Part shown: positions 5,518 to 55,740 of the stretch, in pieces
Layout of the letters: each line of letters begins with the position of its first letter
How positions within the stretch are numbered: the first letter of the stretch is position 1
Origin: an uncultured Clostridia bacterium
GTDB taxonomy: Bacteria; Bacillota; Clostridia; Christensenellales; Borkfalkiaceae
DNA length: 64,000 nucleotides
Direction: 5' to 3'
NCBI GenBank assembly: GCA_930989535.1
Contig: CAKNLK010000007.1
Coordinates: forward strand, 1-64,000
Program-made: the position numbers and the translations under genes
The notes under the pieces: model-generated
What the model was told of the DNA's origin: nothing
Database searches by the model: none
What the model saw: only the letters and a program-made list of their open reading frames with translations

Positions 5518-5708
5518 CGAAACAGGGAAAACCGCGTTTTTACCTGTTTCACCCTATTTGCCGATACCTCGGCTCACAGAAGGGGTGAATGTCCGCGATT
5601 GTATAATATGTGTGCCCCTATATATCGCGGACACAGGGGAAAACCGCTCGGGTTTCCCCTTAAATTCTCGGCATTTCGCAGCCGACAGCTCGGCGAGAAA
5701 TGCGAGAA
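5518..5708 (+). repeat. Multi-hairpin element copy 1 (E-A-B-C-D, complete)
   Basis: E: GAAACAGG/CCTGTTTC at about 5519-5550. A: GCCGA-TACC-TCGGC (5560-5573). B: GTCCGCGAT/ATCGCGGAC with the conserved loop ATAATATGTGTGCCC (5590-5632). C: GGGGAAA/TTTCCCC (5636-5659). D: CTCGGCATTTCGC against GAGAAATGCGAG (5667-5706). D touches the stop codon of the MBL hydrolase gene (5709). The gap to hemZ (5449-5517) also holds an AGCGGC/GCCGCT hairpin. Confidence 0.8.
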
Positions 5709-6311
5709 CTATTTCGCAAAGGGGTTGAATTTGCGCTCGTGCGAAAGGGTCGTCGGCTCGTCGTGCCCCGGGTACACCGTTTTATCCCCTTCGAGCGCAA
5801 GGAGCGCCTGCACGCTCTGGCGAAGCTGCGCCGCGCTTCCGCCGGGGAAATCGGTACGGCCTACGCTCTCGCAAAAGAGAGTGTCGCCGGTAAACAGGGA
5901 ATTGCCGCATAGGAAACAGCACCCGCCCTTCGTGTGCCCGGGCGTAGCGATGACGGAAAAGCGCATGCCGCACAAGTCGAGCGTTTCGCCGCCGCGGAAG
6001 GTGAAATCGATGCGGAACGGCTCGACAGGCACGCCCATCGCGGAAGCGAGGTTGGCGGAGGAGCCGACGAGCTTTTCCTCCTCGGCAAGGCAGCCGATCT
6101 TTGCGCCCGCCGCCTGCAGCGCCGCACAGCCGCCGATATGGTCGAAATGTCCGTGGGTAAGCAAAACGGTATGAATTTTTATGCCCTTTTGTGCCGCGAA
6201 CGCGAGCGGCTCTTTGCCGCCGCAGTCGATGAGAACGGCGTTTTTTCCGTCCTCGGTGACGATATAGGAATTGGCCCGCAAAATGCCCGCGGGGACTGTG
6301 AAGATAGTCAT
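5709..6311 (-). CDS. MBL-fold metallo-hydrolase (glyoxalase II-like)
   Basis: A 200-residue metallo-beta-lactamase-fold hydrolase with the metal motif T-H-G-H-F-D-H-I-G near residue 53, a second histidine in A-T-P-G-H-T-K-G-G, the metal-bridging aspartate in F-T-G-D-T-L-F, and a terminal G-H in Y-P-G-H-D-E-P-T. This is the layout of the YcbL/GloB-like group, thioester or related hydrolases in the cytoplasm. It sits between rel and hemZ, its usual clostridial position. The AAGGA ribosome binding site lies just outside hairpin D of the reverse repeat copy at 6323-6662. The substrate is not known. Confidence 0.9.
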   Translation of the reverse strand: MTIFTVPAGILRANSYIVTEDGKNAVLIDCGGKEPLAFAAQKGIKIHTVLLTHGHFDHIGGCAALQAAGAKIGCLAEEEKLVGSSANLASAMGVPVEPFRIDFTFRGGETLDLCGMRFSVIATPGHTKGGCCFLCGNSLFTGDTLFCESVGRTDFPGGSAAQLRQSVQALLALEGDKTVYPGHDEPTTLSHERKFNPFAK

Positions 6312-6322
6312 AAAAAAAATTT

Positions 6323-6662
6323 CCTTCGCGCGAATCTCGCAAAAGAGATGCTGCGATTCGCTTGATTTCAGAGAAAACCCGCGGGCACGCGGCTTTGCCG
6401 CTGACCGCCTGTTTTCTCTCTTTGCGCTCGTCGCAACAAGGCGACAAAGGACAGGCGGCGTGCGTTGCTTGCCGCCAAGTCCTCGTGTGCTTGTTGCTCC
6501 TTTTCCCCAAAAATCTCACACCGCTTTGCGCGTTGCGATTTTCGGGGGCCCCATTATTTAGGGCTCTCTTATTATAGAGCGCGCACAAATTCACTCTTTC
6601 CGCATATGCCCTTCGGCATATCGGGGGCAAAAACGAAAATTGCGATTTCCGTTTTTGCGAGA
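6323..6662 (-). repeat. Multi-hairpin element copy 2 (reverse, B loop carries a 127-bp insert)
   Basis: Read on the minus strand the order is E (GCAAAAACG/CGTTTTTGC, 6627-6659), A-like region, B (GCGCTC/GAGCGC), C and D (CGAATC/GATTCG, 6333-6360). The B loop holds an insert at about 6429-6553 also found in the copies at 55111-55237 and 55432-55559. D lies just upstream of the MBL hydrolase start. Confidence 0.7.
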
Positions 6663-6673
6663 AATTATTTCCG

Positions 6674-6890
6674 TTCACACTTTTTGTTTTGAGCTGACAA
6701 AACAAAAAGTCGTGATTTTCAGGACAACCCCATTGCCCTCGCTTTGCTCGGGTCAATCGGAGTTTTCCTCGCCGCGGCATAATTAAGGGCACACATATTA
6801 TTAAAATGCCGCGGCTCACCTTTCCTGCAAAAGCAAAAGTGTTTGCAATTTGGGTGCGCTGGCGCAGAGGCGCGACTCTGCTTGCGCAAG
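6674..6890 (-). repeat. Multi-hairpin element copy 3 (reverse)
   Basis: D: CTTTTTGTTTTG/CAAAACAAAAAG with the conserved GAGCTGAC loop (6680-6710). C: 6721-6766. B: GCCGCGGCAT/ATGCCGCGGC with loop TAAGGGCACACATATTA read on the plus strand (6771-6813). E-like: GCAGAG/CTCTGC (6864-6880). It faces copy 4 head to head. Confidence 0.75.
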
Positions 6891-6915
6891 TAATTATTTT
6901 AACGATTACTTGCGC
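6884..6915. repeat. Palindrome joining repeat copies 3 and 4
   Basis: GCGCAAGTAAT and ATTACTTGCGC are perfect 11-base arms around a 10-base loop. They are the centre of a 464-bp inverted pair made of repeat copies 3 and 4 (6674-7137). Confidence 0.8.
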
Positions 6916-7137
6916 GTTCCAAAATCGCTATTTTGATAATTTCTCGAAAAAGGCAAAACCACGCTTTTGCCTTTTTCACCCAATTTGCCGATACCTCGGC
7001 TCACGGAAAGGGTGAAAGCGACGCGCATATTTACGGTGTGCTCCTAAAAGGCGCGTCGCTGAGGGGAAAACCGCTCGGGTTTCCCCTCAAACTCTCGGCA
7101 TTTCGCAGCCGACAGCTCGGCGAGAAATGCGAGAACC
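6916..7137 (+). repeat. Multi-hairpin element copy 4
   Basis: E: AAAAAGGCAAAA/TTTTGCCTTTTT (6947-6977). A: GCCGATACCTCGGC (6987-7000). B: AGCGACGCGC/GCGCGTCGCT (7016-7061). C: GGGGAAA/TTTCCCC. D: CTCGGCATTTCGC/GAGAAATGCGAG (7093-7132). It ends 13 bases before the rel stop codon. Confidence 0.8.
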
Positions 7138-7150
7138 TTTTTTCGTGAAC

Positions 7151-14448: not shown

Positions 14449-14580
14449 AAAGTTTCTCGCGATTTGTTTTGAGCTGCCCCCTTCCGTGAGCCGAGGTATC
14501 GGCTCATCGGGGGAAAAGGGCAAAAGCGTCGCTTTGCCCTTTTCAAACTATTTTTAAAATTTCGTGAACAAGGCACTTTT
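14449..14580 (-). repeat. Multi-hairpin element copy 5 (reverse, truncated)
   Basis: Only half of D (TTGTTTTGAGCTG), A (GCCGAGGTATCGGC at 14490-14503) and E (AAAAGGGCAAAAGC/GCTTTGCCCTTTT, 14514-14543) remain. B and C are missing. It fills the gap between the hexapeptide-repeat gene and the secD promoter. Confidence 0.65.
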
Positions 14581-14604
14581 TTATCGGCTTGTTCGGTGAC
14601 GAAT

Positions 14605-16483: not shown

Positions 16484-16795
16484 AAAAACCTCGCTCGGCG
16501 AAAGCTTTTTGAAAGAGACAAAAACCTTTCGTCCGATTTTAGGGAGACACCGCCCATCAAAACGCTTTCAGCGTTTTCTGCGGCGTTTTCTCCCTCTTTT
16601 TGCCCTTTTAAGGGCTCTCCATTTTTATGGGCAAAAATTCACCCTCTTCCCAAAAGCCGTACGTATGCGGCAAATTGGGGGCGCTTACCAAAAGGCGTGG
16701 CTTTTGGCCGCGCATTTAATTATAAAATGTAAATCTTTATACTCACGAAAAATCCCAGCGAAGCGAGATTTTCGTGATCAAGGCGCTGATTTTTG
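16484..16795 (-). repeat. Multi-hairpin element copy 6 (reverse), leader of scfB
   Basis: Read on the minus strand: a D-like hairpin half (about 16742-16780), E (CCAAAAGC/GCTTTTGG, about 16689-16712), A (GCCGCATACGTACGGC), B (TTTTTGCCC/GGGCAAAAA, 16609-16650), C (AAAACGCT/AGCGTTTT) and D (CGAAAG/CTTTCG, 16498-16531). The segment 16484-16672 is about 95% identical to 42526-42714 before yicC. It supplies the GAGG ribosome binding site of scfB. Confidence 0.75.
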
Positions 16796-18185: not shown

Positions 18186-19779
<1,594 letters not shown>

Positions 19780-19787: not shown

Positions 19788-20213
19788 CTTGCGGCTGCGC
19801 ACGAGGCCGGTTTTTCGCAATACCCTGTCGGGCATTGCTCGCTTCCGCCTCGGCTCCGCCGTCTTGCTCACGAAAATCTCGCTACGTTGCGATTTTCCGT
19901 GAGTTTGCGGTTTTATATAATAATCAATTGCGCGTGGCAAAATCACACTTTTACCTAAGCGCACCCAATTTGTTGCATACTTGTTAAATAATCTACTCGC
20001 GCAAGCAAAACCGCGCTTTTGCGCTAGCGCACCTGTATTTGCGCGAAAGCGCTTTCGCAGGAAAGGTGAATGCGGCGCGCATAATGTGGCGCGCCCTCAA
20101 AAAGCGCGCCGCAGAGGAAAACTCCGACGGTCAGCGGCTTTGCCGCGTGCCGTGGGGTTGTCCTCAATCTCACGGAAATTTGTTTTGTCAGCTCAAAACA
20201 AATTTCGTGAATT
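19788..20213 (+). repeat. Multi-hairpin element copy 7, preceded by module H and a partial copy
   Basis: Module H at 19788-19905 (GCAATACCC/GGGCATTGC hairpin, then GAAAATCTCGC/GCGATTTTC), an E-A fragment to 19985, then a full set. E about 20001-20030. A 20038-20060. B TGCGGCGCGC/GCGCGCCGCA (20070-20112). C 20113-20164. D GGAAATTTGTTTTG/CAAAACAAATTTC (20173-20209). D ends 5 bases from the hisI stop codon. This fills the gap 19780-20214. Confidence 0.8.
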
Positions 20214-20214
20214 G

Positions 20215-20817
20215 CTATTGATGCCGCTTCTCCAACTCCGCGCACACGTCGGACAGCTTTACGCCCGCGTCGGCGAGCAAAACGAGGGTATGGTAGAACA
20301 AATCGGCGCACTCGCCCACGATTTCCTCCTTGTCCCCGTTTTTGGCTGCGATGACAAGTTCCACTGCCTCCTCGCCCGTCTTTTTGGCGATTTTATCCAC
20401 GCCCTTCTGGAACAGGTACGAGGTGTAGCTCCCCTCCTCGGGGTTCTCCTTCCTGTCCTCGACGACGCGCTGCAATTTGCCGAGCATCGCCGCACCCTCG
20501 CAGCACTCTTTTACGGGCGTAAAAAAGCAAGTGTAGTTGCCCGTATGGCACGCCGCGCCGACCTGTTCCACCTTTAAGAGAACGCAGTCTTTATCGCAGT
20601 CGAGGTAAATGCCGCGCACCTTTTGCAGGTGCCCGCTCTCCTCGCCCTTCTTCCACAATTTTTTGCGCGAACGGCTCCAATAGTGCGCGTAGCCCGTTTC
20701 CAACGTCTTTTTGTACGCTTCCTCGTTCATGTACGCCTGCATGAGCACCTCGCCGCTCTCAAAGTCCTGCGCGACGGCGCAGATTAAGCCGTGCGCGTTC
20801 CACTTCAATTCTTCCAT
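20215..20817 (-). CDS. hisI: Bifunctional phosphoribosyl-AMP cyclohydrolase/phosphoribosyl-ATP pyrophosphatase
   Basis: Catalyses histidine steps 2 and 3: removal of pyrophosphate from phosphoribosyl-ATP and opening of the adenine ring. The first half (to about residue 105) is HisI with H-Y-W-S-R-S-R and the zinc cysteines D-C-D-K-D and C-H-T-G-N-Y-T-C-F. The second half is HisE with helices containing G-E-E-A-V-E-L and L-F-Y-H. The 200-residue fusion has the usual HisIE length. It is the last gene of the operon, 3 bases after hisF. Confidence 0.97.
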
Positions 20818-22371: not shown

Positions 22372-22724
22372 ATAATAATCACTCGCGCGAACAAAACCGC
22401 GCTTTTAGCGGCTGCGCACGAGGCCGGTTTGTCGCAATACCCTATCGGGCATTGCTCGCTTCCGCCTCGGCTCCGTCGCCTTTCTTCACGAAAATCTCGC
22501 TCCGCTGCGATTTTCCGTGAGTTTATGGTTTTATATTTAATAATTAAATGCGCGTTCCAAAACGACGCTTTTGGATAAGCGCACCCAATTTGTCGCATAC
22601 CTGCGACCTGAGCGGGTGAATGCGGCGCGCATATATTTGGTGTGCCCTTAAAAGGCGCGCCGCAGAAGGCAGAGCCCTCCAACTCTCGTCTTTTTCTTTT
22701 GTCAGCTCAAAAGAAAAAGTGAGA
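22372..22724 (+). repeat. Multi-hairpin element copy 8 (H-E-A-B-C-D, complete)
   Basis: H: 22406-22522. E: CCAAAA-CGACGC-TTTTGG (22557-22574). A: GTCGCA-TACC-TGCGAC (22592-22607). B: TGCGGCGCGC/GCGCGCCGCA with loop TTGGTGTGCCCTTA (22621-22664). C: GGC-AGAGCC. D: CTTTTTCTTTTG/CAAAAGAAAAAG (22689-22719). The hisH stop codon (22707-22709) lies within D. Confidence 0.85.
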
Positions 22725-23312
22725 ACTCATTTTGCAAAAGTTTTTCAAAAGCCGCAGCCCCGCCTCACCGCTCTTTTCGGGGTGGAACTGCACGCCGAAC
22801 ACGTTTCCGCGCCAGATTGCGGAGGGATAATCGATATAATACTCCGTCTTGGCGCAGGCGAACTCGTCCGCGCAGTCGGCGCGGTAGCTGTGTACGAAAT
22901 AAAAGCGCGTGCCCTCGGCGATGCCCTCGAACAGCGGCGTTTTCAGCCCGTGTACCTCGTTCCAGCCGATTTGCGGAATTTTGCCCTCGATAAAGCGCAC
23001 GACCTGCCCGGGGATGAGCCCCAGCCCCGCAAACTCGCCGTCTTCGAAGCTCTTTTCCAGCAAAAACTGCATGCCGAGGCAGATGCCCAAAATCTTCGTA
23101 TCCGCGGCGCGCGCCTTGATATATAAATCCAATCCCCGCGCGGAAAGCTCCGCCATGCCCGCGCCGAAGGAGCCGACGCCGGGCAGAATCAGCTTGTCGC
23201 ACCCGTCCAAAGCGGCGGGCACGCCCGAAACGAGCGCGCGCTCGCCGATGGCTTCGAGCGCCTTTTGCACCGAGCGCAGGTTCCCCGCGCCGTAGTCGAC
23301 GATGCCGAGCAT
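22707..23312 (-). CDS. hisH: Imidazole glycerol phosphate synthase, glutaminase subunit HisH
   Basis: Glutamine amidotransferase that feeds ammonia to HisF. The 201-residue protein has the class I triad: cysteine in G-I-C-L-G-M-Q, and histidine and glutamate in Q-F-H-P-E-K-S. It directly follows hisB. The family-like end is L-L-K-N-F; the last few residues (S-S-H-F-F-F) are encoded by the D arm of repeat copy 8, which supplies the stop codon. Confidence 0.96.
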   Translation of the reverse strand: MLGIVDYGAGNLRSVQKALEAIGERALVSGVPAALDGCDKLILPGVGSFGAGMAELSARGLDLYIKARAADTKILGICLGMQFLLEKSFEDGEFAGLGLIPGQVVRFIEGKIPQIGWNEVHGLKTPLFEGIAEGTRFYFVHSYRADCADEFACAKTEYYIDYPSAIWRGNVFGVQFHPEKSGEAGLRLLKNFCKMSSHFFF

Positions 23313-27002: not shown

Positions 27003-27242
27003 TTATATAAAAACCAACTGCGCGTTCCAAAAGCGGTTTTATAATAATTACTCGCAAGAGCAAAAACCACGCTTTTTGCTCTTGCCCCATATTTGCCGAT
27101 ACCTCGGCTTACGGAAAGGGTGAAGTTGCGGCATTCTAATAATATGCGTGCCACTAAAAATGCCGCAACGAGGGGAAAGCCGCTCGGGTTTCCCCTCAAC
27201 TCACGAAAATTTGTTTTGTCAGCTCAAAACAAATTTTGTGAA
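27003..27242 (+). repeat. Multi-hairpin element copy 9
   Basis: E: GCAAGAGCAAAAA/TTTTTGCTCTTGC (27054-27085). A: GCCGATACCTCGGC (27095-27108). B: GTTGCGGCATT/AATGCCGCAAC (27125-27169). C: GGGGAAA/TTTCCCC (27172-27195). D: CACGAAAATTTGTTTTG/CAAAACAAATTTTGTG (27202-27240). It ends 6 bases from the recG stop. No gene is supported in 26913-27002. Confidence 0.8.
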
Positions 27243-27246
27243 CCCC

Positions 27247-29249
<2,003 letters not shown>

Positions 29250-32390: not shown

Positions 32391-32420
32391 AAGCCTCCCC
32401 TATCGGGGAGGCTTTTTGCG
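32391..32420 (+). terminator. Terminator of rpmB
   Basis: AAGCCTCCCC-TATC-GGGGAGGCTT hairpin followed by TTT. Confidence 0.85.
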
Positions 32421-32624
32421 CTTTTAGCGGCATTGGATAAGCGCACCCGATTCGCCGTATACCTGCGGCTTTTGGGAAGAGGGTGAATTTGCGGCATTTT
32501 ATAATATGTGTGCCCTTAAAAATGCCGCAAAAAGAGAAAATCCCGCCGCTCGGCTTATGCCGACGGCGGGTTGTCTTTTAACTCACGGAAAATCGCAGGC
32601 GACAGCTCGCCGAGATTTTCGTGA
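32418..32624 (+). repeat. Multi-hairpin element copy 10
   Basis: E is partial. A: GCCGTA-TACC-TGCGGC (32454-32469). B: TTTGCGGCATT/AATGCCGCAAA (32488-32531) with the full conserved loop. C: CCCGCCG/CGGCGGG (32541-32570). D: CGGAAAATCGC with GGCGA/TCGCC and GAGATTTTCG (32586-32621). D ends a few bases before the DUF2284 stop codon. Confidence 0.8.
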
Positions 32625-32630
32625 ACTGCT

Positions 32631-33173
32631 TCATTTCAATAAAAAGCAACTCGTATACGCAATGGTGTTCGGGCCGTAGTTGTACGGGATGCCCGAAAGC
32701 TCGCACACCTTGCTCACCCACAGCCCGTACGCTTCCATCGACGAATAGGAATCTTCGGGGAAGCGGCAGGGCGCATCGGGATAGGTACAGGACTTGCAGC
32801 GCCGGCAGGTGCCTGCGCCCATGCCCAGAACGTCGGGATACATCGCCTTGATTTTCCGCATCATCTTAATAAAGCAATCGGCGTGTTCCTTGCCCGCGCG
32901 CTCGATGGTCTCGTAGTCGTATTCGTCCTCCATCTGCCCCACCGTCTGCACAATCATGCCGAAGGAATACTGCGCGGCGAGCGCCGCCGATTCCTCCAAC
33001 GTTCCGCATGCGGGCGGGCACCGCCAATTCCGGCCGTAGGCGTGGCACTTATCCGCACTGCACATCTGCCGCACCTCGGGCATGAACACGAGCGCCTTGA
33101 GATTCAGCTGCCCCGCGTTGGTAAACCCCTCTTCCAAAGCCAGTTTTTTTAAATCCTCTACCGAATATTCCAT
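32631..33173 (-). CDS. DUF2284 domain protein (cysteine-rich metal-binding)
   Basis: A 180-residue protein of the DUF2284 family, often described as a predicted metal-binding protein. It has cysteines in M-C-S-A-D-K-C, W-R-C-P-P-A-C-G near residue 52 and the cluster C-R-R-C-K-S-C-T-Y-P-D-A-P-C near 122-135, suggesting an iron-sulfur or zinc site. GAGG is 8 bases before the ATG at 33171-33173 and only 2 bases from an ATG two codons earlier, so I prefer the former. It is inserted between rpmB and spoVM, where Bacillus has no gene. Function unknown. Confidence 0.88.
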   Translation of the reverse strand: MEYSVEDLKKLALEEGFTNAGQLNLKALVFMPEVRQMCSADKCHAYGRNWRCPPACGTLEESAALAAQYSFGMIVQTVGQMEDEYDYETIERAGKEHADCFIKMMRKIKAMYPDVLGMGAGTCRRCKSCTYPDAPCRFPEDSYSSMEAYGLWVSKVCELSGIPYNYGPNTIAYTSCFLLK

Positions 33174-38432: not shown

Positions 38433-40598
38433 TTACGAGAGGTTGGAAGGGTTTTCCTCCACGTACACGTTCACGTCGCGCGTCTTGTATTGCAGGGCGC
38501 GCGTGTAAATTTCCGGCAAAAGCCGCTCGTCTGACAGGCGCATGAGCACCTGATAGCGGAATTTATTCTGGATGCGCTTGACGGGCGATTTCATCTTGTT
38601 GAAAAACAGGAAATCCTCCCGATGCGCTTCGAACACCTCTTGGAGGGAAAAATACACCCCTTTGAGCACTTCCAGCGCCTTTTTCTCCTCTTCGCCCACG
38701 ACCATCACGCGCACGATTTTGGCAAAGGGCGGGAATGCCGTGGATTTGCGCACGGAAATTTCGTGCTTGAAAAAGCCCTCGTAATCGTAATTGACCGCAA
38801 AGCGCAGGATGTAATTTTCGGGGTCGTACGTCTGCAAAACGACCTTCCCCTTTTCCTCCGCGCGGCCGCTCCGCCCCGATACCTGCGTGACCAGCTGAAA
38901 GGTGCGCTCGCCGCTGCGGTAGTCGGAAAAATGCAGGCTCATATCCGCGTCCAAAATCCCCACGAGGGTGACGGACGGAAAATCGTGCCCCTTGGCGATC
39001 ATCTGCGTGCCGACGAGGATATCCGCCTTGTGCTCGGCAAACTGCTTGAGTATTTTATAATGCCCCTCCTTGCCGCTCGTCGTATCCACGTCCATGCGCA
39101 AAATGCGCGCCTGCGGCAGAAGTTCTTTGAGCTGGCTGACGACCTTCTGCGTGCCCGTGCCCGTATAACTCAAATGTACGCCGCCGCACTCGGGGCAGGC
39201 GGAAAGCATTTTATACGTCGCGCCGCAGTAATGGCACTTTAAACAGTTTTCTTCGCTGTGGTAGGTGAGCGAAACGTCGCACTGCGCGCACTTGACGACC
39301 GCGCCGCACTCGCGGCACACGACGCTCTGCGCCCAGCCGCGGCGGTTTAAAAAGATAATCGCCTGGTTGCCCTCGGCGAGGCTGTTTTCGAGTTCCTCCC
39401 GCAGCGCCGCCGAAAAGGGAGTGTTGTTGCCGCGGCGCACCTCCCGCCGCATGTCCGCGATGATGATTTCGGGCATCGGGCCTTTGTTGATGCGCTCGGG
39501 GAGTTTTAAGAGGTTGTACTCCCCCTCCGTCGCCTTTAAATAGGTATCCACCGACGGCGTGGCACTGCCGAGCACCAGCTTGCAGCCGTTATACTTTGCG
39601 CGCAGTTCGGCGATTTCCGCCGTGTTGTAGCGGGGCGCCGTTTCGCTCGCGTAGCTGCCGTCGTGCTCCTCGTCCAAAATGATGACGCCGATATTTTCGA
39701 CGGGCGCGAACACGGCGCTGCGCGCGCCGACGGCGATTTTCGCTTCGCCCGTGCGCAACCGCTGCCACTCGTCGAACTTCTCCCCCGCCGACAGTCCGCT
39801 GTGCAAAATCGCCGCGCTGTCGCCGAAGCGGGCGCGCAGCTGCGAAAACATCTGCGGCGTGAGCGAAATTTCGGGAACAAGAAAAATGGCGTTTTTCCCT
39901 TCGGCGAGCGCCTTGGCGATGAGCGTTAAGTAGATTTCCGTCTTGCCGCTGCCCGTTACGCCGTGCAGAAGCTGCACCGTCTTTTCCGATTTTCCGATAT
40001 TCTCCACCGCCGCGCTCTGGGCGGGCGTGAGCGTCCTCTCCGCCGCCTGCCCCTGTACGCCGCTGTACGGCGTGCGGAGCACCCGCTCCTTTTCCAAAGA
40101 GATTACTCCCTTTTCGGCGAGGGCGTTCACCGCGCCGCGGCCGAATCTGTCGCAGAGCTCGGTATATCCGAAGCGGGGATTATCCTGTAAAAAGGCGAAT
40201 GCCGCCGCCTGCGCCTTGGCTCGCGCGGGAATTTCCGCCGTTCCGTCTTTCAGGACGGCAATCGTCTTGAAAAGTTCGCGCACGGCGCCCTTGCGCATCT
40301 CCGATGGCAGAAACAGCCGCAGAACGAGCGCCTTCGGGCAATGGTAGCGCGAAGAGATACTCTCAACGAGGGAGAGGCACTCCTCGGTGAGCGGCTCGTC
40401 CACCACCGAAAGGACGGATTTCAGCTTGGCGGGGTCGAAATCGCTCCCCTCCTTGAGCCGCATGACGTAGCCCTCAATCGTCCTGCCGCCGAAGGGAACG
40501 CGCACGCGGCAACCCGGTTTGACGCCTTCGATTGCACGGTATTCAAATATTTTGTCCACTTCGCTGTGGGCGATGTCTACGATTACTTCAGCGGTCAT
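38433..40598 (-). CDS. priA: Primosomal protein N' (replication restart helicase PriA)
   Basis: Restarts stalled replication forks. The 721-residue protein has an N-terminal DNA-binding domain, Walker A in T-G-S-G-K-T-E near residue 217, D-E-E-H-D motif II near 308, and the zinc-binding insertion with C-R-E-C, C-A-Q-C, C-H-Y-C and C-P-E-C pairs (about 430-475). First gene of priA-def-fmt-rsmB-rlmN-rpe-thiN-spoVM. Its ribosome binding site (GAGG) lies at the end of hairpin D of reverse repeat copy 11. Confidence 0.97.
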   Translation of the reverse strand: MTAEVIVDIAHSEVDKIFEYRAIEGVKPGCRVRVPFGGRTIEGYVMRLKEGSDFDPAKLKSVLSVVDEPLTEECLSLVESISSRYHCPKALVLRLFLPSEMRKGAVRELFKTIAVLKDGTAEIPARAKAQAAAFAFLQDNPRFGYTELCDRFGRGAVNALAEKGVISLEKERVLRTPYSGVQGQAAERTLTPAQSAAVENIGKSEKTVQLLHGVTGSGKTEIYLTLIAKALAEGKNAIFLVPEISLTPQMFSQLRARFGDSAAILHSGLSAGEKFDEWQRLRTGEAKIAVGARSAVFAPVENIGVIILDEEHDGSYASETAPRYNTAEIAELRAKYNGCKLVLGSATPSVDTYLKATEGEYNLLKLPERINKGPMPEIIIADMRREVRRGNNTPFSAALREELENSLAEGNQAIIFLNRRGWAQSVVCRECGAVVKCAQCDVSLTYHSEENCLKCHYCGATYKMLSACPECGGVHLSYTGTGTQKVVSQLKELLPQARILRMDVDTTSGKEGHYKILKQFAEHKADILVGTQMIAKGHDFPSVTLVGILDADMSLHFSDYRSGERTFQLVTQVSGRSGRAEEKGKVVLQTYDPENYILRFAVNYDYEGFFKHEISVRKSTAFPPFAKIVRVMVVGEEEKKALEVLKGVYFSLQEVFEAHREDFLFFNKMKSPVKRIQNKFRYQVLMRLSDERLLPEIYTRALQYKTRDVNVYVEENPSNLS

Positions 40599-40608
40599 AA
40601 CAGAACCT

Positions 40609-40975
40609 CACACATTTTGTTTTGAGCTGTCAAAACAAAATGTCGTGATTTTTAGGACAACCCCACGGCGCGCGGCTACGCCGCTGACCGTCGGAGTTTT
40701 CCTCGCCGCGCAATATTTCAGCGCACGCTTATTATTAAAATTGCGCGGCTCACCTTTCCTGCAAAAGCCGCAGGTATGCGGCAAATGGAGTGCGCTTTCC
40801 GAAAAGCGCGGTTTTCGGATGCGCAGTTGATTATTATAAAACCATATACTCACGGAAAATCGCAGCGTAGCGAGATTTTCGTGAACAAGGCGGCGGAGCC
40901 GAGGCGGAAATGAGCGATGCCCGACAGGGCATTGCGAAAAACCGGACTCGTGCGCAGCCGCTAAAAGCGTCGTTT
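40609..40975 (-). repeat. Multi-hairpin element copy 11 (reverse, H-E-A-B-C-D complete)
   Basis: D: CATTTTGTTTTG/CAAAACAAAATG with the GAGCTGTC loop (40613-40643). C: 40653-40702. B: GCCGCGCAAT/ATTGCGCGGC (40706-40748). A: GCCGCAGGTATGCGGC (40767-40782). E: CCGAAAAGC/GGTTTTCGG (40799-40819). H: about 40849-40966. D ends at the priA ribosome binding site. Confidence 0.85.
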
Positions 40976-40999
40976 TGCTTGCGCGAGTGTTTATTCAGC

Positions 41000-41212
41000 T
41001 CGTGAAATTTGTTTTAAGCTGTTAAAACAAATTTCTACGATTTCAGGGGAAACCCGAACGGCTTTCCCCTCACGGCGGCATATTTTAAGAGCATACATAT
41101 TATTTTAATGCCGCCGTTTCACCCTTTCCGTAAGGCAAGGGATTGCCAAATAGGGTTGCGCTGCGGAAAATTGCGATTTCCCTTGCGCGAGTGATTATAA
41201 ATAATAAACCCA
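41000..41212 (-). repeat. Multi-hairpin element copy 12 (reverse)
   Basis: D: GAAATTTGTTTTAA/TTAAAACAAATTTC (41003-41035). C: GGGGAAA/TTTCCCC (41046-41069). B: ACGGCGGCAT/ATGCCGCCGT (41072-41117). A: GGCAAGGGATTGCC (41133-41147), a different loop. E: GGAAAATTGCGATTTCC (41164-41181). It is followed on the rpoZ side by 41213-41339, where I see no gene. Confidence 0.75.
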
Positions 41213-41596: not shown

Positions 41597-41645
41597 TGCA
41601 CCTCGACATTTCGCAGGCGGCAGCCCGCCGAAAAATGCGAGAACT
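41597..41645 (+). repeat. Single D hairpin of the multi-hairpin element
   Basis: CATTTCGC and GGCGG/CCGCC with AAAAATGCGAG reproduce the D module of copies 1 and 4 alone. It ends 3 bases before the yicC stop codon, in the gap to rpoZ. Confidence 0.65.
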
Positions 41646-41648: not shown

Positions 41649-42524
41649 TTACTCGATATTCTGCACCTGCTCGCGAACCTTTTCGATTTCGTTTTTGAGC
41701 GCGAGCCCGGTATTCGTAACTTCGATGTCGTTGCTCTTCGAGCAAATCGTGTTCGATTCGCGGTTGAACTCCTGCACCAAAAAGTCGAGCTTTCTGCCCA
41801 CGCGCTCCTCCCTGCAGATGGAGCGGAACTGCGCGATGTGCGAAAACAGCCGCGTCAGCTCCTCGTCGATGTTCGATTTATCCGCAAACACGGCTACCTC
41901 GGTGAGAAGCCTCGTTTCGTCGTAATCCACGCCCGAAAGCACTTCTTTCATGCGCTCGCCCATCTTTTTGCGGTAATTTTCCGCGACCAGCGGTGCGCGC
42001 GCCTTGATGCCGTTTACCAGCTTTTCGATTGTCTCCATGCGCGAAAGCATGTCGTCCGCCAGCTTTTTGCCCTCTTTTAAGCGCATGGCGTTCAGATTGT
42101 CGAGCGCCTTGCCCAAAGCCGAGGAAAGCGCGCCCAAAAGCTCGTCGTCCGCGCCCTGCGCCTCCTCCTGCCGCACGACGTCTGCACTCTTCATGAGCGC
42201 GGTGAGGGTGAAATCGTCCGTCAAATCGGGGAACATGGTTTTCAGCCGAAGCGCGGCGGCGGCATACGCCCTGGCGGCGTTTTCGTCGACGAACAATTGC
42301 TTCGCCTTTTCGCGCTTATCGACAAAGACGATGAAGATATCCGCATGCCCGCGCGTCAATTTTTCGCGCACCTGCGAGCGGATGGCTTCCTCGTAAGCGT
42401 TGAATATTTTGGGGCTTTTGACGGAAATATCGAGGTAGCGGTTGTTGACCGTTTTGATTTCAACGGTCAGCTCGATGCCGCCCTCCTTATATTCGCCCTT
42501 TCCGTAACCGGTCATGCTGTACAT
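41649..42524 (-). CDS. yicC: YicC/YloC family endoribonuclease
   Basis: Members (YicC in E. coli, YloC in Bacillus) are stress-linked endoribonucleases. The 291-residue protein begins with the signature S-M-T-G-Y-G-K-G and has the K-T-V-N-N-R-Y-L-D region near residue 23, R-x-H-A-D near 60 and the C-terminal D-F-L-V-Q-E-F-N-R-E-S-N-T-I-C-S-K-S family motif. The ATG at 42522-42524 has GAGG 7 bases upstream, supplied by repeat copy 13; an upstream frame extension lies wholly inside that repeat. Confidence 0.93.
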   Translation of the reverse strand: MYSMTGYGKGEYKEGGIELTVEIKTVNNRYLDISVKSPKIFNAYEEAIRSQVREKLTRGHADIFIVFVDKREKAKQLFVDENAARAYAAAALRLKTMFPDLTDDFTLTALMKSADVVRQEEAQGADDELLGALSSALGKALDNLNAMRLKEGKKLADDMLSRMETIEKLVNGIKARAPLVAENYRKKMGERMKEVLSGVDYDETRLLTEVAVFADKSNIDEELTRLFSHIAQFRSICREERVGRKLDFLVQEFNRESNTICSKSNDIEVTNTGLALKNEIEKVREQVQNIE

Positions 42525-42525: not shown

Positions 42526-42940
42526 GAAAAACCTCGCTCGGCGAAAGCTTTTTGAAAGAGACAAAAATCTTTCGTCCGATTTGAGGGCGACACCGCCCAT
42601 CAAAACGCTTTCAGCGTTTTCTGCGGCGTTTTCTCCCTCTTTTTGCCCTCTTTAAGGGCTCTCATTTTTTATGGGCAAAAATTCACCCTCTTCCCAAAAG
42701 CCGCAAGTATACGGCTACTTGGGGGCGCTTTTTGAGAAGCGCGGTTCTCAAACGCGCTTTTGATTGTTATAAAACCAAAAACTCACGGAAAATCGCAGCG
42801 CAGCAAGATTTTCGTGAACAAAGCGGCGAAGCCGAGGCGGAAACGAGCAATGCCCGATAGGGTATTGCGAGAAACCAGACTCGTGCGCAGCCGCTAAAAG
42901 CGCGGTTTTGCCTTTTTCAAGCGATTATTTTACGCGCGCC
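42526..42940 (-). repeat. Multi-hairpin element copy 13 (reverse), leader of yicC
   Basis: D: CGAAAG/CTTTCG (42540-42573). C: AAAACGCT/AGCGTTTT. B: TTTTTGCCC/GGGCAAAAA (42650-42690). A: GCCGCAAGTATACGGC. E: TTGAGAAGC/GGTTCTCAA (42731-42750). H: 42783-42898. The part 42526-42714 is about 95% identical to the scfB leader (16484-16672). Confidence 0.8.
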
Positions 42941-43125
42941 GCATTCACCTTTCCCGCAAAAGCCGTAAGTATGCGGCAAATGGAGGGCGCTTTTTGAGAA
43001 GCGCGGTTCTCAAACGCGCTTTTGATTGTTATAAAACCAAAAACTCACGGAAAATCGCAGCGCAGCAAGATTTTCGTGAACAAAGCGGCGGAGCCTCATG
43101 CGCAGCCGCAATAAGCCTCTTTTTC
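42941..43125 (-). repeat. Partial multi-hairpin copy joined in tandem to copy 13
   Basis: Only one B arm (GCGCGCCGCA), A (GCCGTAAGTATGCGGC, 42961-42978), E and a shortened H remain. The stretch 42985-43091 is nearly identical to 42721-42826, a direct repeat of about 107 bases. Confidence 0.7.
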
Positions 43126-43165: not shown

Positions 43166-45362
<2,197 letters not shown>

Positions 45363-45371: not shown

Positions 45372-45551
45372 TTGCTGCGCGTGGCAAAACGACGCTTTTG
45401 CCTAAGCGCACCCAATTTGTCGCATACCTGCGACCTGAGCGGGTGAAGTTGCGCGATTTTATAATATGTGTGCCCTATAAATCGCGCAACGAGGGCAGAG
45501 CCCTCAAAATCTCGACTTTTTGTTTCATCAGCTTGAAACAAAAAGTGAGAA
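45372..45551 (+). repeat. Multi-hairpin element copy 15
   Basis: E: GGCAAAACGACGCTTTTGCC (45383-45402). A: GTCGCA-TACC-TGCGAC (45419-45434). B: GTTGCGCGATTT/AAATCGCGCAAC (45447-45490) with the full loop. C: GAGGGC-AGA-GCCCTC (45491-45505). D: CTTTTTGTTTC/GAAACAAAAAG (45515-45545). It ends 1-2 bases before the pcrA stop codon. Confidence 0.85.
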
Positions 45552-45552
45552 T

Positions 45553-47913
45553 TTATTTGATTATCGTAATTGGCGCAATCTGCACGGAGAGCGACTTGAT
45601 GCCGAGGCCGGGGAAGCTGACGTTCGCAACCAATGCCGCCCCCTCGCCGCGGGTTGAGATAATCATGCCGTCGCCGAATTTCGGGTGCCGCACGCGCACG
45701 CCCGCCTTGAACTGCGCATAATCTTTCGCCGCCGTACCGGGGGAAGAACTCCGCCCTCCCGCCTGCGCGCGCTTGTACCCCGCCGCCGCGGAGAAAGACT
45801 TGCCCGCCGAAACGGACGGAACGTCGTCCGCGGGGACATCGGCACGGTAGCCGTACTCGTCCTCGTCGTTCCGCGAGGAGCGGGAAAAGGTGCGCCGCGC
45901 GCCGTACCCGCCATAAGATGAACCGTAGGGGGAAGAGCCGTACCGCGACCCGTACCCCCCGCCGTAGCGGCTGCCGCGCGCGTAGTCGGAGTATGCCGAA
46001 CGCTGCGGCTCCACGTCCATCACGGAGGAAAGCTCCTTCATGAACCGCGATTCGAGCGTCATGCTCCGCTCGCCGTACAGGTAGCGGCTGCGCGAGCGGG
46101 TGAAGAACAGCCGTTCCCGCGCGCGGGTGATGGCGACGTATAGGAGCCGCCGCTCCTCTTCCAGCTCGTTGTCGTCGTAGGCGGCGCGGGAAACGGGGAA
46201 GATGTTCTCCTCCATGCCGACCACGAACACCACCTTGAACTCCAACCCCTTGACCGAATGGACGGTGGCAATGGTGACGTAGTTCGTGTCGTCCATCTCG
46301 TCGGTATCCGAGCTGAGCGTGACCTGGTTGAGGAAATCGCCGAGCGTCGCGCCCTTGTTCATGCGGCAAAATTCGTCGACGGAATTGACAAATTCGTCGA
46401 TATTCGCTTTTTTGTTGATGCTCTCGTCCGAGTCGTCGGCGTACATGCTCAATATGCCGCTGTCGTTGATGACGTCGCGCACGATTTCGTCGGCGCCCGC
46501 CTCCATGCCCTTCAACACGAGGCTTTTGAGGAGTGCGCCGAACGCCCTGACCTTCTGTTTGCTGCCCGCATTCAGCGGCAGATCGTCCACGTCTAAAACC
46601 GCATCATACACCGACAGGTCGTTTTCGGCGGCGTACTGCTCCAGTATTTCGACGGTGCGCGCGCCGATGCCGCGCTTGGGAACATTGACGATGCGGGAGA
46701 CTGCCTCGCTGTCGAACGGGTTGTTGATGACGCGCAGATACGCGAGCAAATCTTTGATTTCCTTGCGCTCGTAGAACTTGAAGCCGCCGAACACCTTGTA
46801 CGGCACGCTGTACTTGGAAAATTCCTGCTCGTATGCGCGGGTGAGCGCGTTGATGCGCATGAGGATAGCGAAGTCGGAAAAGCTGTACCCCTCGCGCATG
46901 AGGTTGCTGATGGTGCGCGTAACCCAAAGCGCCTCGTCGTTCTCCGTTTCCGCCTGGTAGTACTGCGCCTCGCTCCCCTCGCCGTTCTCCGTCCACAGCA
47001 CCTTGTCCTTGCGGCGGCCATTGTTGCGGATGACGGTGTTCGCGAGCTTTAAAATATTTTTGGTGGAGCGGTAGTTGCGCTCCAGTTTATACACTTTCGC
47101 GTTCGGGAAATCCTTTTCGAAGTCGAGGATGTTCTCGATTTTCGCGCCCCGCCAGCCGTAGATGCTCTGGTCGTCGTCGCCGACGGCGAACAGGTTGCCG
47201 TGCACGGTGGACAGCAGTTTTACGATGTCGTACTGCACGGCGTTGGTGTCCTGAAACTCGTCCACGTGTATGTAGCGGAATCGGCCGGAAAGGTATTCGA
47301 GCGCGTCCTTATCCGTTTCGAGGAGGCGCAGCGCCTCGGTGAGCAAATCGTCGAAGTCGAGCGCGTTGTTCTTTTTGAGGTGGTCGCAGTAGGCGGCATA
47401 GACGGCGCAGATGTCGCGTATCTCATTGACATCTGCATTTTCCTCGGCGTACTGCTGGGGCGTTTTGCCGAGCATTTTGGCGTTCGCGACGTGGAATTTG
47501 ACGTTTTTGAGGAGTTTTTCGTCCTCCAAACCGCAATCGGCGAACGCCTTTTTGATGACGTTCGCCCGCTCCGTTTCGCTGTAGATGGAAAAGTTTTTAT
47601 TGTACCCGAGCCGCTCGGCGTACATGCGCAGGATGCGCACGCACATGCTGTGGATGGTGCAAATCCACATGCTCTCGCTCCCCTCGACCATATCCGAAAG
47701 GCGCACGCGCATCTCGTTCGCCGCCTTATTCGTAAAAGTTATGGCGAGGATGGACGAGGGGCGCACCCCCTTTTCCTCGACGAGGTAGGCGATGCGCGAG
47801 GTAAGCACGCGCGTTTTGCCGCTGCCCGCGCCCGCGAGCACCAAAACCGCCCCCTCCGTGTCGGTGACGGGCTTTAATTGTTCTTCGTTGAGTTTTTCCA
47901 AAATTTCCTGCAT
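45553..47913 (-). CDS. pcrA: ATP-dependent DNA helicase PcrA/UvrD
   Basis: 3' to 5' helicase of superfamily 1 in repair and replication. The 786-residue protein has Walker A in A-G-A-G-S-G-K-T-R near residue 30, F-T-N-K-A-A-N-E-M, V-D-E-F-Q-D-T near 215, G-D-D-D-Q-S-I-Y-G-W-R-G near 240, and V-H-S-V-K-G-L-E-F and Y-V-A-I-T-R-A-R in the late motifs. After the helicase core comes a glycine/tyrosine/serine-rich low-complexity stretch (about 680-720), then the C-terminal Tudor-like end. Confidence 0.96.
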   Translation of the reverse strand: MQEILEKLNEEQLKPVTDTEGAVLVLAGAGSGKTRVLTSRIAYLVEEKGVRPSSILAITFTNKAANEMRVRLSDMVEGSESMWICTIHSMCVRILRMYAERLGYNKNFSIYSETERANVIKKAFADCGLEDEKLLKNVKFHVANAKMLGKTPQQYAEENADVNEIRDICAVYAAYCDHLKKNNALDFDDLLTEALRLLETDKDALEYLSGRFRYIHVDEFQDTNAVQYDIVKLLSTVHGNLFAVGDDDQSIYGWRGAKIENILDFEKDFPNAKVYKLERNYRSTKNILKLANTVIRNNGRRKDKVLWTENGEGSEAQYYQAETENDEALWVTRTISNLMREGYSFSDFAILMRINALTRAYEQEFSKYSVPYKVFGGFKFYERKEIKDLLAYLRVINNPFDSEAVSRIVNVPKRGIGARTVEILEQYAAENDLSVYDAVLDVDDLPLNAGSKQKVRAFGALLKSLVLKGMEAGADEIVRDVINDSGILSMYADDSDESINKKANIDEFVNSVDEFCRMNKGATLGDFLNQVTLSSDTDEMDDTNYVTIATVHSVKGLEFKVVFVVGMEENIFPVSRAAYDDNELEEERRLLYVAITRARERLFFTRSRSRYLYGERSMTLESRFMKELSSVMDVEPQRSAYSDYARGSRYGGGYGSRYGSSPYGSSYGGYGARRTFSRSSRNDEDEYGYRADVPADDVPSVSAGKSFSAAAGYKRAQAGGRSSSPGTAAKDYAQFKAGVRVRHPKFGDGMIISTRGEGAALVANVSFPGLGIKSLSVQIAPITIIK

Positions 47914-52809: not shown

Positions 52810-54132
52810 TTATTCTACTCGCTCGGCGAGCAGTCCGTCCTCGAAGAGGGCGACGGCGCGCACGCGCACCTTTTGGCCGGCCGGCGCCCCGCCCGCAAGG
52901 TACAGGCGGATGTAATTTTCCGAATACCCGACGGTGTACCCGTTCTTTTCCTCTTCGGGAATCATTTCCAGCGTTTTGCCGATGTGCGCCCGCTCGTACT
53001 GTTCGCGCAGCTCCCTGCCCAAGGCAAGCAGGCGGTGCAGCCGCTCCTTTTTGACGGCGGCGGGCAGCTCCTTCAGTTTTGCGGCGTTCGTGCCCGTGCG
53101 GCGGCTGTATGCGAAGCAATGGATCTGCGAAAACGCCGCCCTGCGCGCGAGCGAAAGCGTCTCCTCGAAATTTTCCTCCGTTTCCGTCGGGAAGCCCGCG
53201 ATGATGTCCGTCGTAATCGCCGCGTCGGGGAAATATTCGCGGATGAGCGCCACGCGCGCGAGGTACTCCTCGCCCGTGTAGTGGCGGTTCATCTTTCTGA
53301 GCACCGCGTCCGAACCGCTCTGCAGGGACAAATGGAACTGCGGCGCGAAGTCGCGCACCTGCTTTGCCGCCCGCAAGAGTTTCTCCGTGACGACGCCGAC
53401 CTCCAAAGAACCGAGGCGTATGCGCGATTTTGCGTCCTTGACGGCAAGGAGAAGTTCGGGCAGGCCTCGCTCCCCGTCGCGATAGGAAGAGATGTCGATG
53501 CCCGTAACGACGCACTCGGCGGCGTTGCATTGTAAGATTTCCGCCGCCGCGCTCTCCACCGTGCGCGAGCGGCTCCTGCCGCGCAGGTACGGGATGATGC
53601 AGTAGGAGCAGAAATTGTTGCACCCGTCCTGAATTTTAATGAACGCGCGCGTTTTCAGCTGCACGGGCGCGGGAAGTTCGTCGTACTCCCTATCTGCCTC
53701 GTCGATGCGCACCTTCTCCGCCGAATATGAAACGGGTATCGTTTGCGACTCGCAAAGCTCGGGCGCTTCCGCAAAGGGCAACCCTTCGCCGCGGGCAAAG
53801 CCGTCGATGAGTTCCAGAATTTTGCCCTTCTGCCGCGCGCCGGTAACGAGGGTGACGTTGCGCTTATCCGCAAATGCCGCGGGCGCCTTTTCCGCCGCGC
53901 AGCCGCACACGATGACGGGCGCATCCGGCGAAACGGCGGCGATGCGCGCGATGGCCTGGCGCGACTTTTTTTCCGCCTCGCCCGTGACGGCGCAGGTGTT
54001 CAGAATATACAAATCGGCGGGCACGAGCTCGTCCGAAACCTCCCAGCCGCGCTCGGAAAGCCCGCGCGCGAGCGAGCCGCTCTCGCAGCCGTTGACCTTG
54101 CAGCCGAGGGTGAAAACGACAGCCTTCTTCAT
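52810..54132 (-). CDS. mtaB: tRNA (t6A37) methylthiotransferase MtaB
   Basis: Adds a methylthio group to t6A at position 37 of tRNAs reading ANN codons. The 440-residue protein has the N-terminal UPF0004 domain with three cluster cysteines (L-G-C-K-V-N, L-N-T-C-A-V-T, V-C-G-C-A), radical SAM C-N-N-F-C-S-Y-C-I-I-P near residue 150 and a C-terminal TRAM domain. L-G-C-K-V-N is typical of MtaB rather than MiaB. The ATG at 54130-54132 (GGGGGAG upstream) overlaps the rsmE stop. Confidence 0.95.
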   Translation of the reverse strand: MKKAVVFTLGCKVNGCESGSLARGLSERGWEVSDELVPADLYILNTCAVTGEAEKKSRQAIARIAAVSPDAPVIVCGCAAEKAPAAFADKRNVTLVTGARQKGKILELIDGFARGEGLPFAEAPELCESQTIPVSYSAEKVRIDEADREYDELPAPVQLKTRAFIKIQDGCNNFCSYCIIPYLRGRSRSRTVESAAAEILQCNAAECVVTGIDISSYRDGERGLPELLLAVKDAKSRIRLGSLEVGVVTEKLLRAAKQVRDFAPQFHLSLQSGSDAVLRKMNRHYTGEEYLARVALIREYFPDAAITTDIIAGFPTETEENFEETLSLARRAAFSQIHCFAYSRRTGTNAAKLKELPAAVKKERLHRLLALGRELREQYERAHIGKTLEMIPEEEKNGYTVGYSENYIRLYLAGGAPAGQKVRVRAVALFEDGLLAERVE

Positions 54133-54845
54133 GCCCACTCCCCCAGTTCGAACATTGCGGCGGAGAGGAAAGCGATGGCTGCCGTTTCCGCGCGCAGAAT
54201 GCGCTTGCCGAGCGTAATGCCCGCAAAGCCCGCCGCCTTTGCTGCCGCGAACTCCTCCTCCGAAAAGCCGCCCTCGCTGCCAACGACGAGCGCCGTGCTA
54301 CCTGCGAGGGAATGGAGGTCAAAATCGGACGCATGCGCAAATTCGCAGGCGAACAATTTATGTTCGTACCCCGCGCAGGAGGCGAGCGCCCCCTCCAACG
54401 AGTCGAAATATTCGATATGCGGAACGGTGGCGCGCAGGCACTGTTTTGCCGCCTCGCGCGCGACCTTTTTCAGCCGTTCGAGCTTGTTTTCGTTCATATA
54501 CGCGGCGCAAAAGCGGGAGGAAAACACGGCGATCTCCTTGGCGCCGAGTTCGGTCGCCTTCTGCACGACCAGCTCCGTTTTATCCCCTTTGAGCGCGCCG
54601 ATGAGGAGTTTGACGGGCGTTTTCGCCTCCTTGTCGGAAGGGCGTTCACCCACGACGCCGCACAGCATTTCGCCCTTGCCGATTTTATTGACGACGGCAT
54701 CGTATTCGTTGCCGCTGCCGTCGAGCAGGACGATTTCGTCCCCCTCTTTGAGGCGCAGAACGTTTTTGGCGTGCGAATACTCATCGCCCGTCAAAGCCGT
54801 TTCCCGCGCTATTTTGTCGACATAAAATCTGCGTACCGTCGCCAT
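54129..54845 (-). CDS. rsmE: 16S rRNA (uracil-1498-N3)-methyltransferase RsmE
   Basis: Methylates U1498 of 16S rRNA. The 238-residue SPOUT enzyme has an N-terminal PUA-like domain with H-A-K-N-V-L-R near residue 25, K-A-T-E-L-G-A-K near 94, and the knot loop V-G-S-E-G-G-F-S-E-E-E near 195 with L-G-K-R-I-L-R-A-E-T-A near the end. It is coupled to mtaB. Confidence 0.96.
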   Translation of the reverse strand: MATVRRFYVDKIARETALTGDEYSHAKNVLRLKEGDEIVLLDGSGNEYDAVVNKIGKGEMLCGVVGERPSDKEAKTPVKLLIGALKGDKTELVVQKATELGAKEIAVFSSRFCAAYMNENKLERLKKVAREAAKQCLRATVPHIEYFDSLEGALASCAGYEHKLFACEFAHASDFDLHSLAGSTALVVGSEGGFSEEEFAAAKAAGFAGITLGKRILRAETAAIAFLSAAMFELGEWA

Positions 54846-54857
54846 AAAACTCCTTTT

Positions 54858-55318
54858 TTTAGCGGCTGCGCACGAGGCAAGTTTCTCGCAATGCCCTGTC
54901 GGGTATTGCTCGTTTCCGCCTCGGCTCCGCCGCCTTGTTCACGAAAATCTCACCGCGCTGCGATTTTCCGTGAGTCTGTGGTTTATAATTAAAATAATTA
55001 CTCGCAAAAGCAAAAACCGCGCTTTTTGCTTTTGCACTCAATTTGCCGACACCTCGGCTCACGGAAGGGGTGAAGTTGCGGCATTTTATAATATGAGTGC
55101 CCTTAAAAACAACGGGGCCCCCGAAAATCGCAACGCGCATAGCAGTGTGAGATTTTTGGGGAAGAGGAGCAACAAGTGTACGAGGGCTTGGCGGCAAGCT
55201 ACGCGCGCCGCTTGCCCTCCGTCGCCTTGTTGCGACGTGGCATGAGGGGAAAGCCGCTCGGGTTTCCCCTAAATTCGCAGAAATTTGTTTTATCAGCTTA
55301 AAACAAATTTCGCGAGCA
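54858..55318 (+). repeat. Multi-hairpin element copy 16 (with H and a 127-bp insert in B)
   Basis: H: 54863-54975. E: GCAAAAGCAAAAA/TTTTTGCTTTTGC (55004-55034). A: GCCGACACCTCGGC (55045-55058). B left arm GTTGCGGCATT (55076-55086) and conserved loop, then the insert (55111-55237); the right arm is not well preserved. C: GGGGAAA/TTTCCCC. D: GCAGAAATTTGTTTTA/TAAAACAAATTTCGC (55276-55314). Confidence 0.75.
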
Positions 55319-55740
55319 ATTCTCTCGCGCAAGCAAAACCGCGCTTTTGCGCAGCGCACCCCTATTTGCAAACACCTTTGCTTTTGCAGGAAAGGTGAAT
55401 GCGGCGCGCGCAAAATGGTGTGCCCTAAATAAACAGGGTCCCCGAAAATCGCAACGCGCGTAGCGGTGTGAGATTTTTGGGGAAAAGGAGCAACAAGTGT
55501 ACGAGGGCTTGGCGGCAAGCTATGCGCACCGCCCGCCCTCCGTCACCTTGTTGCGACGAGCGCCGCAGAGGAAAACTCTGAACGCCGCGCCGCTTATTAA
55601 GCGGCGCGCGTTGGGGTTGTCATCAAAATCACGGAAAAAAGTTTTATAATCGCTTAGGCGATTGCGGTGCACTCGTTTTCGCTTTTGCGAGCAAGTGAAA
55701 GCCTCGCGCACCTTCAGCTTAAAACTTTTTTCGTGAATCA
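55319..55740 (+). repeat. Multi-hairpin element copy 17 (127-bp insert in B, enlarged D)
   Basis: E near 55329-55360, A near 55371-55390, B TGCGGCGC/GCGCCGCA around the insert (55432-55559), C 55565-55623. D has arms AAAAAAGTTTTA/TAAAACTTTTTT separated by about 70 bases of further palindromic sequence (55634-55737). It touches the prmA stop codon (55742). Confidence 0.7.

Follow-up and report, generated by a model that had tools for sequence, protein, structure and literature searches.

Five-hairpin repeats at gene borders of an uncultured Clostridia bacterium: a strongly covarying family that may be mobile DNA

Introduction

The first 64,000 nucleotides of contig CAKNLK010000007.1 (assembly GCA_930989535.1, forward strand), from an uncultured Clostridia bacterium of the family Borkfalkiaceae, carry in their intergenic gaps a family of repeats built from a series of hairpins, and this whole stretch, hereafter the window, raises the question of whether such a family is an RNA maintained by selection on its fold or DNA that moves. 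Covariation in stems is usually counted the best sequence evidence for a functional RNA, and the stems of this family covary strongly. A sequence-only reading of the window had offered both a large structured RNA and a non-autonomous mobile element. On balance we favour the latter, in the manner of the doublets of repetitive extragenic palindromes (REPs) known as REPINs and of bacterial interspersed mosaic elements (BIMEs), because the copies are insertions, form inverted pairs, lie between genes and have no coding capacity; the family would diversify by exchange of hairpins.

Architecture of the element

One copy is a single arm of about 205 bp, in which an AT-rich foot is followed by hairpins E, A, B, C and D. 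A covariance model, R1 (158 positions, 46 pairs), was built from alignment A2, 31 copies from the window and the rest of its genome, throughout which the order E-A-B-C-D is constant and the linker GGTGA(A/G) is kept. The module order H-E-A-B-C-D proposed from the sequence therefore stands for its last five members and the linker, but H is a separate unit of about 130 bp, a D-like hairpin with a tail of about 75 bp, which adjoins E in some gaps and is possibly another leader-type arm. The motif at the far end of H units has seven sites in 440 kb, two of them ending 11 and 16 nt from a start codon.

Arms can be sorted by their C hairpin into type I (a short GGGG C), long C and minimal C. In the 31-copy alignment the feet of D are TCNC and D ends in GTGAAC, GCGAGC or GAGAAC; beyond a few bases the outer end sequences (GTTCACG, GCTCGCG, GTTCTCG) are variable. 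A single arm is without a terminal inverted repeat, as had been reported for the window, but a pair of arms joined E to E has its two D hairpins as inverted ends. Three window arms hold an insert of about 130 bp inside the B loop (6429-6559, 55107-55237 and 55427-55558). These inserts have hairpins of their own, with similar ones in other copies of the genome (L015, L028). Short stubs of D ends resembling TTTTTTCGTGAAC adjoin D at 7137-7150 and at locus L256, and look like displaced older copies.

Three further ideas about the architecture were set aside. A strict scan for D as a free-standing repeat gave 31 D hairpins, all at called copies and none solitary, a weak result as more than half of the D hairpins escape the scan, the imperfect one at 41597 among them. 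When some 18 copies were compared by eye, no clear correlation pointed to a pseudoknot of the A stem with the B loop, and a promoter in the AT-rich centre or the B loop, inspected by eye alone, was unconvincing.

Insertions seen against relatives

Copies of the family are lineage-specific insertions that split two operons closely spaced in about 28 relatives. The gene order RelA-MBL-radical SAM is conserved in relatives, where the RelA-MBL gap measures -8 to 244 bp in 28 of them against 821 bp here (BLAST-end estimates; 839 bp here by gene calls) and the MBL-radical SAM gap 4 to 161 bp in 28 of 29 (1044 bp in one) against 263 bp here; these loci gave one weak element match among the 29. HisH and HisA are 13-239 bp apart in 28 relatives (the piece fetched for the 29th is without HisH) and 374 bp apart here. 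In the relatives no element lies in this gap, and matches are confined to the far ends of the pieces fetched. Furthermore the similarity of HisH (201 residues) to its homologues stops at residue 195 or 196 in all 28 relatives, and residue 195 lies 2 nt from the end of D, from which it follows that the last residues and the stop codon (22707-22728) were written by the element. Dispersed copies, lineage-specific sites and split operons all support the non-autonomous mobile element among the earlier options.

Placement relative to genes

Placement was analysed over 440 kb with our own simple gene caller and 71 of 72 R1 matches, one 44-nt fragment being dropped. In 57 of the 71 copies a coding edge is no more than 40 nt from the D end. 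In 38 of these the edge is a stop codon (31 of them at -1 to 7 nt) and in 19 a start codon (at 7-20 nt), which puts D just ahead of the ribosome site; the E core edge lies within 90 nt of a coding edge in only six. Read in the direction of the gene, 31 of the 38 stop-side copies run stop codon, at most 8 nt, then D, and in two copies the outermost base of D is the G of a TAG stop. D overlaps the gene end in a few cases, the copies otherwise being in gaps. Several of the 14 exceptions with no nearby coding edge at D are inner members of tandem or paired sets. Arms sorted by motif differ, with stop-side placement in 19 of 21 short-C arms versus 19 of 36 long-C arms (Fisher p = 0.004), and in a second genus of the family, g26, 11 of 18 copies end -15 to 24 nt from the edge of an open frame of at least 170 codons (our own reading, made with no null).

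Neighbouring arms no more than 600 bp apart are joined E-E in 12 cases and in tandem in 10, never D-D, and the E-E core-to-core distance is 86-89 bp in seven of the 12 pairs. Amongst gaps of at least 150 bp, copies occupy 2 of 30 divergent, 38 of 116 co-directional and 7 of 19 convergent ones. The statement that the family fills almost every long gap was too strong: a copy is present in 12 of the 18 window gaps of at least 200 bp, counted by hand and with one copy only partial, and in 46 of 130 over the 440 kb.

Placement bears on an alternative that we consider unlikely, a mobile structured RNA whose E-to-D strand is transcribed as a leader or small RNA and whose fold is kept by selection. 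It agrees with the 19 copies that end 7-20 nt ahead of a start codon, where transcription would make leaders of them, and copies directly upstream of ribosome sites may have an RNA role; the 38 copies that lie antisense behind stop codons do not fit.

Placement also bears on a conventional miniature inverted-repeat transposable element (MITE), an inverted-repeat form derived from a cut-and-paste transposon, mobilised in trans and with the D hairpins as its ends. Inverted pairs with D outside, intergenic position, dispersal and the lack of a coding frame would all suit it, but 51 of the 71 arms (71%) lie outside close E-E pairs and the end sequence is not fixed beyond a few bases; a set of five internal hairpins that is both kept and shuffled is, to our knowledge, not a MITE trait. 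This explanation too seems improbable.

Stem covariation and pair chemistry

Chance is excluded as the source of the fold because the two copies tested have fold z-scores of -7.4 and -7.1 and the covariation is far above that of shuffles. For 78 distinct copies, in an alignment fitted to R1, the covariation score is 0.601 versus 0.177 in shuffles (none of 500 reaches it) and at most 0.134 when slid; 92% of cells pair and 41 of 46 pairs change on both sides. Pair types, one of five covariation measures, are not above shuffles (82 versus 85.6). Strong covariation counts in favour of the structured RNA, as does the conservation of hairpin order and of loop and linker words across genera.

A structured RNA should tolerate G-U on its transcribed strand, but in the variable stems G-U is as rare as A-C, unlike in RNase P RNA. 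The B and D stems of A2 contain one G-U and 12 A-C among 768 cells, and A2 with our own structure has 26 G-U versus 27 A-C. Counts from 58 of 65 copies, with a hairpin finder that penalises G-T and A-C equally, are 486 Watson-Crick, 1 G-T and 1 A-C for E; 613, 4 and 4 for B; and 627, 1 and 2 for D, or 1726, 6 and 7 for the three summed. The C hairpin, with 569, 15 and 4, leans towards the RNA. Across 30 genomes of the genus, RNase P RNA has 332 G-U and 11 A-C in 2760 cells (12.0% and 0.4%), or 6.0% and 0.6% in its variable pairs, this comparison set having a higher identity (86%) than the element set (65%). The variable stems thus covary almost entirely through Watson-Crick swaps and are without a G-U signature on either strand.

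Exchange of hairpins between copies

The distance between two copies at one hairpin does not foretell their distance at another. Mantel correlations between E, A, B, C and D range from -0.15 to 0.09 in 21 copies of the window's own genome, in which the B stem and the B loop give 0.73; the two sides of one stem give 0.94-1.00. With type I arms only, r is -0.07 to 0.06 for 33 own copies and -0.10 to 0.02 for 21 copies of genome G017. Four-gamete violations occur in four of six hairpin pairs in the 21 copies (E-A three cases, E-B three, A-B five, A-D three), and near-identical copies in G012, compared by eye, differ by replacement of a whole stem within D or A. Within a genome, then, each arm is statistically close to a random combination of hairpin alleles, and whole hairpins seem to be swapped between copies.

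The independent variation of the hairpins is a further difficulty for the structured RNA. Because the stems have no G-U signature and the hairpins are near linkage equilibrium, whole-hairpin exchange is enough to explain the covariation; a large structured RNA as its cause is not supported, and for this family covariation cannot tell RNA from DNA.

Weighing a mobile element

In the mobile DNA that we favour, arms often join foot-to-foot as an inverted pair with the D hairpins outermost, and an enzyme would recognise the folded strand and insert the unit at gene borders. Stems would stay perfect and yet vary because whole hairpins are copied from element to element, probably by gene conversion or replication template switching, and not by compensatory mutation at the level of RNA. 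A more elaborate proposal, which we put forward only tentatively as a possibility, is a combinatorial system with five ordered hairpin slots, each with its pool of alleles, reassorted over more than 100 copies by hairpin-specific exchange (through an enzyme or a replication mechanism) and delivered precisely to gene borders.

Several observations weigh against mobile DNA that diversifies in this way. No target duplication was established in the few flanks inspected by eye, and no empty site was found at near-identical flanks, the relatives being 59-79% identical in the proteins searched. Only 20 of the 71 arms are in E-E pairs closer than 200 bp, so that the pair is not established as the mobile unit. 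Correlations are slightly positive in 19 type I copies of G012 and G026 (r 0.08 to 0.18; B-D 0.18, p = 0.025), and rise when subtypes are pooled to as much as 0.46 (A-C, own genome) and to 0.20-0.75 (G012 and G026), which we read as subfamily structure; the four-gamete violation is absent for E-D and B-D in the 21 copies. All alifold pairs taken together show more G-U than A-C, 63 versus 21 in alignment A1, a point for the RNA, and 43 versus 12 in A2, the excess being mainly in C and in the A stem, where the alifold pairs are doubtful.

The search for a mover belongs with these points. A Y1 (IS200-type) transposase is present in 20 of 38 genomes of the genus and does not track the element: it is absent from the element-rich G012, G016 and G026 and present in the element-free G002 and G005, and none of the eight Y1 loci fetched holds an element. 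Reverse transcriptase (4 of 38 genomes) and IS110 (5 of 38) were likewise rejected, having no association with the repeats. The mover was thus not found among these three families, other transposase families not having been searched, and no gene set between paired arms, as in an autonomous version, was noticed, though no systematic search was made.

That three enzyme families do not track the repeats is a point for a multiplication with no mobilising enzyme at all, in which template switching and gene conversion between hairpins alone would spread and diversify the arms; the hairpin as unit of exchange is a second. Distant new copies flush on stop codons look too precise for template switching, which is not known to reach such precision, and we regard this explanation as quite unlikely. 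Perfect stems of Watson-Crick pairs only are what template-switch correction would give according to the parts compared of PMC8794818; by the same parts template switching can invert loops, and in our alignments the loops hold one orientation.

Copy number and taxonomic spread

All genomes compared are incomplete metagenome-assembled genomes. The window's own genome (2.1 Mb) has at least 150 R1 matches (every one of the 150 candidates scored), a few of which are two halves of one copy, with dense clusters on contigs C10, C18 and C7. Its longest contig, C1 (184 kb), has one R1 match among those listed. With the best 48 candidates per genome scored, 35 of 37 genomes of the genus have matches, several of them few, the two without being G002 and G005; outside the genus there were matches in one of 24 genomes. 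Over the order 14 of 297 genomes were matched, in 3 of 125 genera, namely the genus itself, g26, which belongs to that family too (8 of 9 listed genomes), and g6 of another family (four genomes, weaker matches). For one protein of the window's organism the three nearest records, from uncultured Clostridia or Firmicutes MAGs, match at 66-73%, and Candidatus Coproplasma at 47%. Copies from the distant genera keep the hairpin order and the linker and loop words, with stems that are almost completely different.

Rfam 15 gave no match at gathering score, its six weak matches up to E = 1 being on none of the listed copies, a point against the structured RNA. No match was found by blastn with one copy in phage and plasmid collections, nor was a family of this kind found described in the open-access literature. 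Many genomic copies, significant covariation and no Rfam match are what the sequence-only reading had named as support for a new family.

Copies in the window

That reading had counted about 19 whole or partial copies, a figure that stands. R1 matches with E no greater than 1e-15 lie in 16 of the 19 features, and the remaining three (those at 14449, 41597 and 42941) are partial copies read by eye from the sequence. We read the weaker R1 matches in the window as antisense or H cross-matches. R1 core coordinates are shorter than arm coordinates, and both are given where they differ.

5506..5709, + strand: arm E-A-B-C-D, type I; R1 core 5550-5709, E 1.5e-47; D end touches the stop of gene 5709-6311 (-)
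6324..6672, - strand: arm, long C hairpin, B-loop insert; R1 6324-6627, E 9.5e-18; D ends 12 nt ahead of the start codon (6311)
6429..6559, - strand: ~130-bp B-loop insert of arm 6324..6672; forms inverted repeat I1 (89%) together with 55107-55237
6673..6900, - strand: arm, long C hairpin, E-to-E with arm 6933..7136; R1 6673-6856, E 1.6e-35
6933..7136, + strand: arm, type I; R1 6977-7136, E 2.8e-47; 14 nt between D and the RelA-like gene's stop at 7151
14449..14590, - strand: partial arm (E, A and half of D, without B and C); from sequence, weak overlapping R1 match E 1.3e-5
16493..16728, - strand: arm, long C hairpin; R1 16493-16681, E 2.1e-24; D ends 12 nt ahead of the start codon (16480)
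19791..19917, - strand: H unit; repeat I3/D4; far end 11 nt from the start of gene 19321-19779 (-)
19987..20212, + strand: arm, long C hairpin, preceded by a truncated E-A; R1 20031-20212, E 1.3e-33; 2 nt between D and the stop of HisIE (20215-20817, -)
22408..22541, - strand: H unit upstream of HisA; repeat D4
22538..22726, + strand: arm between HisH and HisA; R1 22582-22726, E 7.9e-25; D forms the last codons and stop of HisH
27041..27243, + strand: arm, type I; R1 27085-27243, E 6.8e-49; 3 nt between D and the stop of RecG (27247-29259, -)
32418..32626, + strand: arm, long C hairpin; R1 32444-32626, E 3.9e-38; D end 4 nt from the stop of 32631-33173 (-)
40606..40836, - strand: arm, long C hairpin; R1 40606-40792, E 2.7e-32; D ends 7 nt ahead of the PriA gene's start codon (gene 38433-40598, -)
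40839..40966, + strand: H unit; repeat I2, 91% to 54857-54984
40998..41208, - strand: arm, type I, inner copy of its gap; R1 40998-41157, E 6.7e-46
41597..41643, + strand: lone D hairpin; from sequence, no R1 match of its own; adjoins the stop of the YicC-like gene 41649-42524 (-)
42536..42765, - strand: arm, long C hairpin; R1 42536-42725, E 7.5e-22; D ends 11 nt ahead of the start codon (42524)
42772..42899, + strand: H unit; repeat I4
42941..43095, - strand: partial arm (A-E) and H fragment; from sequence; repeats D1 and D10
45160..45362, + strand: arm, type I, first of a tandem pair; R1 45204-45362, E 1.1e-47
45372..45552, + strand: arm, minimal C hairpin; R1 45409-45552, E 5.6e-30; D end touches the stop of UvrD/PcrA (45553-47913, -)
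54857..54984, - strand: H unit; repeat I2; far end 16 nt ahead of where gene 54129-54845 (-) starts
54987..55317, + strand: arm, type I, with B-loop insert 55107-55237; R1 55035-55317, E 1.1e-37
55319..55738, + strand: arm, long C hairpin, B-loop insert 55427-55558; R1 55358-55738, E 9.8e-16; 3 nt between D and the stop of PrmA (55742-56683, -)

Elsewhere in the window, 61665-63692 encodes a predicted protein with BspA-type leucine-rich repeats, collagen-like repeats and a GLUG motif.

Significance and comparison with known systems

A strongly covarying family with the marks of exchange at the level of DNA gives RNA discovery both a test case and a warning. The combinatorial system, if true, would be a source of stem covariation beyond selection on RNA and simple template-switch correction. 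In one gut genus the family splits operons, gives a protein a new end and supplies new leaders; its many natural insertions are on offer for tracing what moves folded DNA.

As far as the parts compared of PMC3116915 go, REPINs are inverted REP doublets, extragenic, abundant and capable of folding into hairpins, and the doublet is treated as the replicating unit. The present family is likewise extragenic and abundant, with inverted doublets and no coding frame; REPINs are however short and tied to RAYT, whereas here each half is a five-hairpin arm of about 205 bp with reassorting hairpins whose stems are diverse in a single genome, and Y1 does not track it. With the REPs and BIMEs in the parts compared of PMC2817692 it has in common more than 100 copies, extragenic position, mosaic clusters and alternating orientation, but those REPs have a GTAG-type foot and a nearly fixed palindrome and the element has neither. 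We class the family as working in the manner of REPINs, and not as REPs, because it has no GTAG-type foot and no tracking RAYT.

The stem-loop repeat families of 40 bacterial genomes (PMC2267715) are also repeated intergenic sequences with a shared predicted fold, although a five-hairpin arm and the shuffling of hairpins are not described in the parts compared. Finally, the origin of stems by template switching, in the parts compared of PMC8794818, resembles what is seen here in acting on DNA and in giving perfect stems and multi-base compensatory changes; it acts within one gene over time, whereas in this family hairpin alleles are common to copies in many combinations.

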